A stretch of 64,000 bases of DNA, taken from positions 1,242,876 to 1,306,875 of the forward strand of contig NZ_LT828648.1 in NCBI RefSeq assembly GCF_900169565.1, in the 5' to 3' direction. Of this stretch, positions 27,173 through 31,548 are shown one piece after another (within the stretch, counting starts at the first letter, position 1; each line of letters begins with the position of its first letter). Position numbers and translations under genes: made by a program. This DNA is from Nitrospira japonica. GTDB taxonomy: Bacteria > Nitrospirota > Nitrospiria > Nitrospirales > Nitrospiraceae. The notes below the pieces were generated by a model that was given only the letters and a program-made list of their open reading frames with translations, was not told the DNA's origin and searched no databases.

Positions 27173-28720
27173 ATGAGCATCTATTTCACTCGCACCGCAT
27201 CGGCGTGCCTCCTCAGCGCGATGACCCTCGCACCCGTCGTGGCCTGGGCAGACGATCTGGACACGATTCGGTTCGGCGAGGCGGCGCTCAGCTTCGCCTC
27301 CGGCTCGATCCAGCGGACCACTCCGCAAGACGGGGTGGTGAACGTCACCACGGGGGACAATCAGACGACCGGTGATAGGATGCAACTGGGATTGCAGGAC
27401 ACCCTCTATCTGCGGCTGAAAAATCCGGCCGATGCATCGGTGGGCGATCTCTATACGGTCTTCAAGCGCGCTCGCAAGGTTTTCCATCCCGTGACCAGGG
27501 AATATTTGGGATATCTGGTCATTCGTCTTGCCGTCGTCGAAGTCGTTCAGGTCGACAAGACGCTCATCACCGTACGGGCGATCCGGGCCTACGGAGCGGT
27601 GTCCCCCGGTGATCCGGTGGCGAAGTTCGCGCTGCCGACCGAATCGGAGCCGGATTCGACTCCTTCCTCCGGGGCTGTCAACGGGATCGTCGTCGAACTC
27701 CAGGCCGACAAGGGCATGACGCTGGTGGCGCAACGTAATATCGTCTATGTCGATCGGGGCAGTCACGACGGCCTGCGGGCCGGCGATGTGGTGGAAGTCA
27801 TTCGCTCGGGTGGGAACTTGCCGCCTAGGAACGTCGGAGAGATCAAGATTCTTTCGACTGAGGCGCGGACGTCGACCGCCTTGATTACGCGATCGACATC
27901 GCGAATTCTGCCCGGGGACCGCTTCCGCATCAAGGCCTCGGAGGGGGATGCCGTTCCCGTCTCTATGCCGGTTCCGCATGAAGTGCAGCCGCTGAATACG
28001 ACTCGTCAGGACGCGAACGCTCTGCAGGCCGTGGAGGCTGTTCCCAGCCAGCTCAAAAACACACAGCCTGTGTCGCGCGAGACTCGGATCACGCTCAGCG
28101 ATCCCATGAAGCAATTGCGATACGAATCGGGCGAGGCAGCGATCAGACCCGATGGCTATAAGATCCTGGACGCACTGACCGAATATTTGAAAACCGCACC
28201 GGCGGATCAGCTCATTCGCGTGGAAGGCCATGCCGACGACATGGAAATCGGTCCCGCCCTGAAATCGCGATACCAGACCAACTGGGATCTCTCGAAGGCA
28301 CGCGCGAGCGGAGTGCTGCGGTATCTTGTCGAAAAAGGCGGGATCGATTCGGCAAGAATTTCGTCCGTGGGATACGGCGATACGAAACCCCTCGTGAGCA
28401 ACGCAACAGAAGCCGGTCGACAAAAGAATCGTCGGGTGGACGTCGTGTTATATCTTCCGGAGTCCGACCCGACTCTCCCCGAGCAGACAAGGGGGGCTGT
28501 CATAGAAGAACGTGCGCAGAGGGTCGGTGGTCCGCCCGTGCACAAGTCGGAGGTCTCGATGGCCTCGGCCGACCAAGTCCCGGCTCCGCCGACTGTTACC
28601 GACAGAGTTCCGGAACGGGACAGTGCTGTTCAGGTCCAGACGGAGAAAGCGGCGGAGAGTGCCGCGGCGATCGCTCAGGAGCAACCGCCGGCCGAAGCAT
28701 CCGTTCCTCTTCAGCCCTGA
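27173..28720 (+). CDS. OmpA-family envelope protein
   Basis: 515 residues. Signal peptide (ACLLSAMTLAPVVAWADD). The central region (about 60-260) holds two related beta-rich parts that look like repeated modules, each with a phrase such as VGDLYTVFKR and RAGDVVEVIRSGG. The C-terminal OmpA/MotB peptidoglycan-binding domain (about 305-425) reads LRYESGEAAIRPDGYKILDALTEYL, VEGHADDMEIG, WDLSKARASGVLRYLVEKGG, GYGDTKPLVSNATEAGRQKNRRVDVVL. A 90-residue Pro/Ala/Glu-rich tail follows. AAGGA precedes the ATG. Probably tethers an envelope structure to peptidoglycan; no partner is evident. Confidence 0.85.
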   Translation: MSIYFTRTASACLLSAMTLAPVVAWADDLDTIRFGEAALSFASGSIQRTTPQDGVVNVTTGDNQTTGDRMQLGLQDTLYLRLKNPADASVGDLYTVFKRARKVFHPVTREYLGYLVIRLAVVEVVQVDKTLITVRAIRAYGAVSPGDPVAKFALPTESEPDSTPSSGAVNGIVVELQADKGMTLVAQRNIVYVDRGSHDGLRAGDVVEVIRSGGNLPPRNVGEIKILSTEARTSTALITRSTSRILPGDRFRIKASEGDAVPVSMPVPHEVQPLNTTRQDANALQAVEAVPSQLKNTQPVSRETRITLSDPMKQLRYESGEAAIRPDGYKILDALTEYLKTAPADQLIRVEGHADDMEIGPALKSRYQTNWDLSKARASGVLRYLVEKGGIDSARISSVGYGDTKPLVSNATEAGRQKNRRVDVVLYLPESDPTLPEQTRGAVIEERAQRVGGPPVHKSEVSMASADQVPAPPTVTDRVPERDSAVQVQTEKAAESAAAIAQEQPPAEASVPLQP

Positions 28721-28821: not shown

Positions 28822-31122
28822 ATGCGAGACGTTCCGCCCGCTGAGTCGCTCGGTGCCGCTCGGCGTCTCTACGCGGAGGTCGTCGTTCCACGACATATCA
28901 GAAGTTCATTTACCTATCTGGTGCCGTTGCATCTACGGCCGATCCTGCGAGTCGGACACTGTGTTCACGTTCCGTTCGGACGGGCGCGGCTCCAAGGCAC
29001 CGTCGTTTCCCTCGGTGACCACCTTCCCGCCGGTTTGAGCCGAGAACGGCTCAAAGAGATCAGCTCCATTACGACAGCCGACGGACCCGATGAAATTTCG
29101 CCGGAGCTGCTTGCGCTTGCGAAGCGGGTGGCGGACTACTATGTCGCTCCCTTGGGACAGTGCCTGCGGCTGGTGTTGTCTCCTTCAACCGTCAGCACGA
29201 AGCGCGGGAGTCTTCTGAAGTTGACGACATCAGGTCGCGAAGCGTTGGCAACCGGGATTCTCGATGACCAGCCTCGTTCTTTGCTCGAGCGATTACGAAA
29301 GAAACCCGCCGGCATCAGGATGACCACGCTCTTGAAGCCCGGCCCTTTCGTACAAACGCACGTCATAGAGGATGTCATCCAGAAAGGCTGGGTCGCTCGA
29401 ATTCAGTCACGAGCCGATCATGAAGAGTTTCCTGAGGTCGATTCAAGTCAGACGACCATGTCAACGATGCCTCCTGACGACGGATCCACGCTTGCGGACG
29501 ATGCGATATCCCGTGCCCTTGAGTCACGCCTCCATGCCGTACTCGAAGGTGGCCGATCGGACACCCTGATTCTACAGGCCTCCCTCGCGGAACGGATGGA
29601 ACTGCTGCACGGTTCGATTCACCGGACGCTTGCCAGCGGACGGTCGGTTCTCGTCTTGATCGGAGAAACAGATCGAGCGCGATGGGTGGCCGACAGGCTC
29701 ACGCGGCGGGGTATTGTCGTTGCTTGCTATCTGCATGCGACATCGCCAGATGAAACGCGTGCGGAGGTGTGGCGTCGGGTGAAGGGCCCGGTACCGCAGG
29801 TCGTGGTGGGGACCAGGTCGGCCGTCTTTCTTCCCTTCTCGGCCTTGGGAATGATTTGGGTCGAGGCACCCGGCGATTCATCGCTCAAGGAACCACAGGA
29901 ACCTCGCTATCATGCGCGGGACGTGGCGCGCTTTCGCATTGAGGCCGGGCAAAGCTTCCTGATTCTCGGCTGTTCCCGGATTCCGTTGGACATCGCCGAT
30001 CCCATGGACGACTCGGGGACAATCGTACGCCAGTCGCCGGCGATGGAATCAACGCCGAACGTCGAGGTCGTGGACCTTCGCTCTTTCGGGAAAGGTGCGC
30101 TCGTGACCCCGCCGTTGCTTGACGCGATGCGTGAGGCGATCGACAGCCGATCCGGCGTCCTGCTTTTTCTCAACCGCAAAGGCTATGCGAACGCGCTGGT
30201 GTGTCGCGATTGCGGCCAAGTGCCTCGATGCGCATCCTGCCGGATTGCGTTGGCCTATTCGCGACGAACCGGACGGTTGCTGTGTTCGTATTGCGGGACA
30301 TCCATAGCGCCTCCCGGCACCTGCCCGATCTGTTCAGGACACCGCCTGCAGCCGGTCGGTGAAGGGACCGAACGGGTCGAGGAAGAGGTCGGCCGCCTGT
30401 TTCCCGGTGCACGGGTGATGCGGGCCGACGGGGACAGCATGCGGAAGCCGTCGCAAGCAGCCACGGGGTGGAAAGCCATTCAAGACCGGCAGTGGGACGT
30501 GCTCATCGGAACGCAACTCGTCCTTCGCGACTATGCCGTACCCATGGTTGGTCTCGTCGGGGTCGTTCATTCGGACGTCAGCCTCAACGTTCCCGATTTC
30601 CGGGCAGCCGAGCGCAGCTATCACATGCTGTGTGACGCGATGGCATTGGCGCGTCCTGCCAAGGACGGGGGACGGATCGTCATTCAGTCTCACCTGCCGT
30701 CTCATCATGCCATTCAGGCCGTCGTTCACCGGGATGAGAGGATATTCGCCGCCGAGGAGCTGAGTCACCGAGCCGCTCTCGGATATCCACCGGCGGTTCA
30801 CTTGATCGGGCTCTATGTGTCGGGAAGAGATCAAGGCCTGGTCGAGAAGGCCGCGTTGGAACTGGTCGATCGGCTTCGAGCGTCTCTGAATATGCCGGAT
30901 AAGGCGTCGTTGGCCGGTCTAGGCGAGGATGCCGTGCTCGGACCGGTGGCACCTCCCGGAGCCCACGTTCGCGGGCGACATCGGCGGCAGATCCTGGTCA
31001 AGTCTGTTCGGCGGGAACAGGGAGTACGGTCGGTTCAGCAGAATCTTGAACTCCTCGAGAGTATCTATCGGAAGCACGTCGTCAAATTTGACGTCGACGT
31101 GGATCCCGTCGAGATGTGGTGA
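28822..31122 (+). CDS. priA: PriA-family primosomal protein N', helicase motifs degraded
   Basis: 766 residues, normal PriA length. The N-terminal 3'-end-binding part is present (AEVVVPRHIRSSFTYLVP), and all eight zinc Cys are kept: C461, C464, C470, C473, C488, C491, C501, C504. The ATPase core has lost its motifs. Where GVTGSGKTEVY is expected there is LILQASLAERMELLHG (about 249-264). The DEEH box before DSS is VEAP (347-350). GSATPS is replaced by GCSRIP (383-388). The AKGHDF region reads VLRDYAVP, and QVAGRAGR after the PDFRAAERSYHML match is absent. PriA reloads DnaB at stalled forks; this one may load without unwinding, as reported for ATPase-deficient actinobacterial PriA. Reading frame intact, so not a pseudogene. 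Confidence 0.9.
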   Translation: MRDVPPAESLGAARRLYAEVVVPRHIRSSFTYLVPLHLRPILRVGHCVHVPFGRARLQGTVVSLGDHLPAGLSRERLKEISSITTADGPDEISPELLALAKRVADYYVAPLGQCLRLVLSPSTVSTKRGSLLKLTTSGREALATGILDDQPRSLLERLRKKPAGIRMTTLLKPGPFVQTHVIEDVIQKGWVARIQSRADHEEFPEVDSSQTTMSTMPPDDGSTLADDAISRALESRLHAVLEGGRSDTLILQASLAERMELLHGSIHRTLASGRSVLVLIGETDRARWVADRLTRRGIVVACYLHATSPDETRAEVWRRVKGPVPQVVVGTRSAVFLPFSALGMIWVEAPGDSSLKEPQEPRYHARDVARFRIEAGQSFLILGCSRIPLDIADPMDDSGTIVRQSPAMESTPNVEVVDLRSFGKGALVTPPLLDAMREAIDSRSGVLLFLNRKGYANALVCRDCGQVPRCASCRIALAYSRRTGRLLCSYCGTSIAPPGTCPICSGHRLQPVGEGTERVEEEVGRLFPGARVMRADGDSMRKPSQAATGWKAIQDRQWDVLIGTQLVLRDYAVPMVGLVGVVHSDVSLNVPDFRAAERSYHMLCDAMALARPAKDGGRIVIQSHLPSHHAIQAVVHRDERIFAAEELSHRAALGYPPAVHLIGLYVSGRDQGLVEKAALELVDRLRASLNMPDKASLAGLGEDAVLGPVAPPGAHVRGRHRRQILVKSVRREQGVRSVQQNLELLESIYRKHVVKFDVDVDPVEMW

Positions 31123-31548
31123 TCAACGCTTCTTGCGTGAGCTCGCGCGCGCAGGCGGAAGCGTGTCGGCCACGGATTCCACGGTCGGTGTCGCCGACCG
31201 CTTGAATAATCCGTAGGAGAAGGCCAGCCAAAATGCGGCGGACAGAATGCCCGTGAGGGCGGCGGAGAGCAGCATACCCATCTGCTCGTCGGAGGGCTGA
31301 GCGGTTGAGGCGCGGAGCTGTTGCATCGTCAGGATCGGCCAGAGAAAACTCTCGATCCCCAACAACAAGGTGACCCACGCCCAGATCGTTGTGATGGTCT
31401 TGCCTCGCCAAGCCAGTAGTCCGGCGGCAACGGCGAAGACGATGCCCCCCCCGACGGGCGAGAGACGATCCCATGCCAGCCACGCGCCGATGGCGACGAC
31501 GAGACTGCCTGCGAGCGAGTTGACGAGTAGGATCCAGAACGGGTGCAT
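31123..31548 (-). CDS. Small integral membrane protein, unknown
   Basis: 141 residues with about four membrane helices (FWILLVNSLAGSLVVAIGAW, GGGIVFAVAAGLLAW, TTIWAWVTLLLGIESFLWPIL, GMLLSAALTGILSAAFWLAF) and a basic cytoplasmic tail ending SSRKKR. It ends immediately next to the priA stop in convergent orientation. No known domain recognised; a conserved-hypothetical type. Confidence 0.7.
   Translation of the reverse strand: MHPFWILLVNSLAGSLVVAIGAWLAWDRLSPVGGGIVFAVAAGLLAWRGKTITTIWAWVTLLLGIESFLWPILTMQQLRASTAQPSDEQMGMLLSAALTGILSAAFWLAFSYGLFKRSATPTVESVADTLPPARASSRKKR

Follow-up and report, generated by a model that had tools for sequence, protein, structure and literature searches.

PriA unwinding is usually regarded as a conserved component of replication restart; the exception that has been noted is Deinococcus-Thermus. 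When E. coli PriA is bound to a fork, its 3'-DNA-binding domain (3'BD) and C-terminal domain (CTD) lie on the leading arm, HD1, the 3'BD and WH lie on the parental duplex, and HD2, the CRR and the CTD surround 8–9 nt of lagging ssDNA (PMC10175261). PriA-PriB restart in E. coli requires neither the ATPase nor the helicase activity of PriA (PMC10175261), and E. coli priA300 (K230R), which is ATPase-dead, still assembles primosomes and supports restart (cited in PMC4504706 and PMC10175261). Deinococcus radiodurans PriA has lost its Walker boxes and shows no measurable ATPase or unwinding; it does bind ssDNA and forks, and it interacts with DnaB (Lopper et al. 2015, PMC4504706).

Our search of open papers for PriA of Nitrospira or Nitrospirota found none. 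Here we followed up a priA homologue in a 64,000-nucleotide stretch of the Nitrospira japonica genome (the window), which an earlier note had read as selected for a non-unwinding role in replication restart. We consider it very probable that its product (the window protein) is a PriA pseudohelicase whose motor was lost in an ancestor of the order Nitrospirales and which has been kept as an ATP-independent platform for fork recognition and loading. As precedent, the earlier note had named the ATPase-deficient PriA of Actinobacteria, which is described in database annotation. The tested ATPase-dead precedent is D. radiodurans PriA, and the comparison should be moved there (PMC4504706).

The frame opens with ATG and runs for 766 aa without interruption, as had been noted. 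It scores 350.5 bits with TIGR00595 (NCBIfam; cut-off 230.35), placing it in the PriA family, and both Pfam PriA_3primeBD and PriA_C exceed their cut-offs, while no helicase-core Pfam domain matched the protein even at E<=10. By sequence it matches PriA of E. coli and Klebsiella in the PDB (E about 1e-66). The host genome (4.08 Mb, one contig, 99.96% complete) carries one priA; a TIGR00595 search of this contig, a check that the earlier note had proposed, found no second copy, divergent or catalytic, the weaker matches being Mfd, UvrB and RecG. A frame error, which had been suggested as a possible flaw over residues 249–350, is ruled out because the frame aligns end to end with that of the closest sampled relative (L044, 74% identical), and the identical frame and losses recur in many independent genomes. 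Around it, priA is convergent with a small gene and a response regulator, with nuoA upstream on the opposite strand (Table 1). Most of the family f1 loci sampled show this neighbour order too, and in family f3 the small convergent gene likewise adjoins priA; because the order recurs among relatives, priA lies in its ancestral place and was not acquired recently.

Table 1. Features of the priA locus, with positions in the window and residues of the window protein
Feature	Position	Strand	Basis
OmpA-domain protein, conserved neighbour directly upstream of priA	27173..28720	+	synteny
priA homologue, 766 aa, ATPase motifs lost (probable PriA pseudohelicase)	28822..31122	+	TIGR00595, Pfam, PDB sequence match
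3'-DNA-binding domain PF17764, residues 19–119	28876..29178	+	69.8 bits, cut-off 22.7
Lost Walker A/motif I, LILQASLAERMELL, residues 249–262, Arg258 at Lys position, shorter than GxTGSGKT block	29566..29607	+	alignment
Kept motif Ic GTRS, residues 330–333	29809..29820	+	alignment
Lost motif II, DEEH to EAPG, residues 348–351	29863..29874	+	alignment
Lost motif III, GSATPS to GCSRIP, residues 383–388	29968..29985	+	alignment
Kept motif IV (VLLFLNRKGYAN), residues 446–457	30157..30192	+	alignment
Cysteine-rich region, eight zinc Cys, residues 461–504	30202..30333	+	alignment
Motif V, GTQ start kept, KGHDF lost, residues 563–576	30508..30549	+	alignment
Kept PDFRAAER segment, residues 591–598	30592..30615	+	alignment
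Lost motif VI, Q(V/A)AGRAGR replaced, residues 602–616	30625..30669	+	alignment
PriA C-terminal domain PF18074, residues 659–762	30796..31107	+	43.6 bits, cut-off 26.9
Small protein with no Pfam match, its gene convergent with priA and kept next to it across the order	31123..31548	-	synteny

Alignment to catalytic PriA bore out the replacement of Walker A. All 110 intact PriA have a P-loop block of 15 letters; that of the window protein, LILQASLAERMELL, is shorter by one residue, and Arg258 occupies the position of the Walker A Lys. DEEH is likewise replaced, although by E348-A-P-G351 and not by the VEAP first proposed, which was off by one column. The exchange of GSATPS for GCSRIP was read correctly, as was the loss of AKGHDF and QVAGRAGR, where LRDYAV and D..AL.RPA align. 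None of the signatures of an active SF2 PriA helicase (Walker A GxTGSGKT, DEEH, GSATP and motif VI QxxGRxGR) is present, and a pattern scan found no intact Walker A or DEEH elsewhere in the 766 residues, where their presence would have spoken against the earlier reading.

The DNA-contacting parts of the protein fared differently. In SF2 helicases, motifs Ic, IV and the beginning of V chiefly contact DNA. The window protein still has Ic as GTRSAVF, IV as FLNRKG and the beginning of V as IGTQ, and PDFRAAER too, all conserved at or near the level of catalytic PriA. The earlier statement that every helicase/ATPase motif had been lost therefore holds for the ATP-handling motifs but is too strong for Ic, IV and the start of V. 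The intact N-terminal domain and zinc site that it also described are both there: Pfam recognises the 3'BD, and all eight zinc Cys (461, 464, 470, 473, 488, 491, 501 and 504) align as four CxxC pairs, the predicted binding sites for two zinc ions, as in PriA. The order of domains is that of PriA: 3'BD, WH, lobe 1, lobe 2 with the cysteine-rich insert, CTD. An AlphaFold2 model (34 sequences) formed all PriA domains, with pLDDT 85.6 and pTM 0.85, although its alignment included catalytic PriA and so pulled it towards the PriA fold. The model matches PriA structures along its full length. The best nine PDB fold matches were all PriA (E. coli and Klebsiella), followed by Mfd, and the match to the E. 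coli PriA/PriB/fork complex 8fak reached E 3e-47 with TM 0.79 by target length. The window protein is thus predicted to have a complete PriA fold.

Compared with E. coli PriA (8fak, 6dgd), the window protein shares domain order, fold, the eight zinc Cys, Ic, IV and PDFRAAER; E. coli PriA, however, is an active 3'-5' helicase working with PriB, DnaT and DnaC, whereas N. japonica has DciA and a PriA without the ATPase motifs. The priA300 allele is a single engineered change, and the Nitrospirales case a natural, clade-wide loss. The likeness to D. radiodurans PriA is closer, in that Walker A and B are lost from a complete PriA with its DNA-binding regions kept, and a whole lineage shares the loss (the phylum there, Nitrospirales here). 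The extent differs: in D. radiodurans a Lys is changed to Arg inside GKT, whereas the window protein has an unrecognisable P-loop, one residue shorter, and also lacks motifs III, V (in part) and VI. D. radiodurans belongs to a different phylum and its PriA has been tested biochemically; Nitrospirales PriA is known from sequence and predicted fold.

To place the loss within the order, we sampled 61 Nitrospirales genomes from four of its families and 32 genus groups. Walker A and motif VI are absent from every PriA that covers that region, with Walker A in 0/65 Nitrospirales PriA, Nitrospira moscoviensis (L140) among them. By contrast, 109 of the 110 comparison PriA, drawn from part of the phylum sample and from other phyla, carry the Walker A pattern, the sole exception (L199) having the variant AVTGSGKT. 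Ten named Nitrospirales records, including Nitrospira moscoviensis NSP M-1 and Nitrospirales bacterium NPIRA06, show the motif-less pattern, one of them (L135) being incomplete at motif I; named records from Thermodesulfobacteriota, Myxococcota, Acidobacteriota, Planctomycetota, Bacillota and others have intact PriA. The P-loop block has 14 letters in 57/64 Nitrospirales PriA and fewer in the rest, and Arg stands at the catalytic Lys position in 48/64. Walker A and B are lost in a complete PriA and the loss is conserved in the lineage; the alignment with catalytic and other Nitrospirota PriA that had been called for shows a clade-wide loss far older than one gene. The losses were not all simultaneous, since PriA of family f4 (L017, L021, L022 and L024) keeps DEEH intact without Walker A or motif VI; this family may be an intermediate or may have a separately constrained Walker B.

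PriA itself was not found in every genome. One relative of the same family (G156, group g5; 2.0 Mb, 99% complete) has no match to TIGR00595 or to the clade profile beyond weak matches to other helicase frames. This reduced relative may have lost priA altogether, and PriA function may thus be dispensable in the clade. A 92% complete genome (G040) also gave no PriA match, and two others (G049 and G068) have PriA pieces only, at contig ends.

Many families of the wider phylum sample have intact PriA, and PriA of families f8, f14, f16 and f18–f23 is motif-less. These motif-less families make up a second clade (L100–L118, n=19), which resembles Nitrospirales in having lost Walker A, DEEH and motif VI and in keeping its CxxC pairs (at least four in 18/19). 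It differs in its shorter frames (611–691 aa) and in a P-loop of ancestral length (18/19) with Glu at the Lys position (15/19), not Arg. In a free tree built with the catalytic columns removed, each motif-less group formed a single clade with full support and the two were separate; the AU test did not reject one joint clade (p = 0.445). The second clade probably lost its motifs separately, because the P-loop was shortened in Nitrospirales only and the second clade changed Lys to Glu without a deletion. A single origin is disfavoured by the free tree and by P-loop length, with the AU test non-rejecting.

The gene remains under purifying selection. Against L044, the overall dN/dS is 0.24, with 0.26 for lobe 1 and 0.14 for lobe 2 plus zinc region; across 14 Nitrospirales pairs the median is 0.27. 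Relative to intact PriA, information content is lowered in motifs I (0.45), VI (0.70), Ia (0.72), V (0.73), Ib (0.75), II (0.77) and III (0.81) and level or higher in Ic (0.98), IV (1.01), the zinc region (1.05), the 3'BD (1.14) and the CTD (1.25); the intact group spans many phyla and the groups differ in diversity, so these ratios call for caution as absolute values, and comparing motifs inside a single group is safer. The median ratio of lobe 1 to lobe 2 rates, computed on amino-acid differences in pairs picked by identity, is 1.30 in Nitrospirales against 0.81 in intact PriA (pairs with 10–45% difference; p = 2e-4), and 1.35 against 0.91 for pairs with 3–30% difference (p = 0.04). Such a pattern is what would be expected where ATP handling has been released and DNA binding and architecture are held. 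The stem branch of the Nitrospirales PriA clade is long (0.38), and R258, K453, H601 and L609 are newly fixed in it, while column 681 holds Trp in 89% of Nitrospirales PriA and Leu in the window strain. The loss throughout the order as sampled, purifying selection, conserved DNA-binding motifs and lack of a second priA support the earlier proposal of selection for a non-unwinding PriA.

Three other accounts have to be weighed against retention as a platform. The gene could be a decaying remnant in which catalysis went first and the rest is drifting, leaving no present function. The window copy has indeed degenerated further than most relatives (EAPG for DEEH, GCSRIP for GSATPS), and PriA is missing from the near-complete G156, yet no PriA match across the 61 genomes and 32 genus groups had a reported internal stop, at least four CxxC pairs persist in 65/65 Nitrospirales PriA, the 3'BD and CTD are conserved no less than in catalytic PriA, and synteny around the gene is conserved. 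The dN/dS, well under 1, rules out a pseudogene, and with the conserved cysteines it largely refutes decay for the clade; we regard this account as barely credible.

It is also very unlikely that a non-canonical site still binds or hydrolyses nucleotide. Family f4 keeps DEEH, the second Glu of DEEH is kept by most relatives (94%, column 350), and lobe 1 is still constrained (median dN/dS 0.26), but the P-loop is shortened, the catalytic Lys and the motif VI arginines are gone, and the window protein lacks the second Glu as well; ATPase was not measurable even in D. radiodurans PriA, whose loss is milder (PMC4504706). A move to another DNA-binding job, such as DciA-aided loading of DnaB at the origin or work at gaps or D-loops, with restart by another route, would fit the long stem branch and the newly fixed K453, H601, L609 and Trp at column 681. 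We consider it improbable, since the PriA fold and the fork-contacting domains are kept and the helicases examined include no other restart initiator.

For the favoured pseudohelicase, homology, fold and the Deinococcus precedent suggest a role in replication restart, and we infer ATPase inactivity, fork binding, contact with DnaB or DciA and restart function for the window protein. Unwinding would have gone because ATP binding and hydrolysis were lost. The 3'BD would bind the 3' end of the nascent leading strand. The parental duplex would be held by lobe 1 together with the winged-helix region, and the lagging-strand ssDNA would lie enclosed by lobe 2, zinc region and CTD. The resulting PriA-fork complex would be the site for DnaB reloading, probably with DciA, and a different enzyme, such as RecG or a UvrD-family helicase, or else a nuclease would have to open double-stranded lagging arms.

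Because all sampled Nitrospirales relatives share the loss, bacteria can evidently live with a motorless PriA. This kind of pseudohelicase is already known from Deinococcus; the open papers searched appear to hold no report of it in this lineage, nor of so complete a loss. In an environmentally central order (nitrite-oxidising Nitrospira and kin) and in a second clade, motor loss thus recurs and is stable over the long term, providing a natural separation-of-function PriA that sets the essential roles (recognise and load) apart from the optional one (unwind). The conserved surfaces may point to those that load DnaB where the partner is DciA and not DnaC. A bolder suggestion, which we hold to be rather unlikely, is that the dead core became, in Nitrospirales (where R258, K453, H601 and L609 are newly fixed) and independently in the second clade, a dedicated part for docking DnaB/DciA or clamping ssDNA, with unwinding left to a separate helicase. 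If true, bacteria would have given up PriA unwinding on at least three occasions, once in Deinococcota and once in each of two Nitrospirota clades.

Among the replication partners, DciA is present above cut-off in the N. japonica genome and in 80/80 good genomes from the phylum sample, whether or not their PriA is intact. DciA does not explain the motif loss, because it is present wherever PriA is intact. A check for DnaC/DnaI-type loaders gave only weak IstB-family matches, in frames of 368–805 aa. The genome also carries RecG, Mfd and two UvrD-family genes, RecG and the UvrD-family proteins being candidates, by their presence, for opening duplex lagging arms. A Type I restriction R-subunit-like helicase frame (L129, G000:C1:3118168-3118629) lies elsewhere in the same genome.
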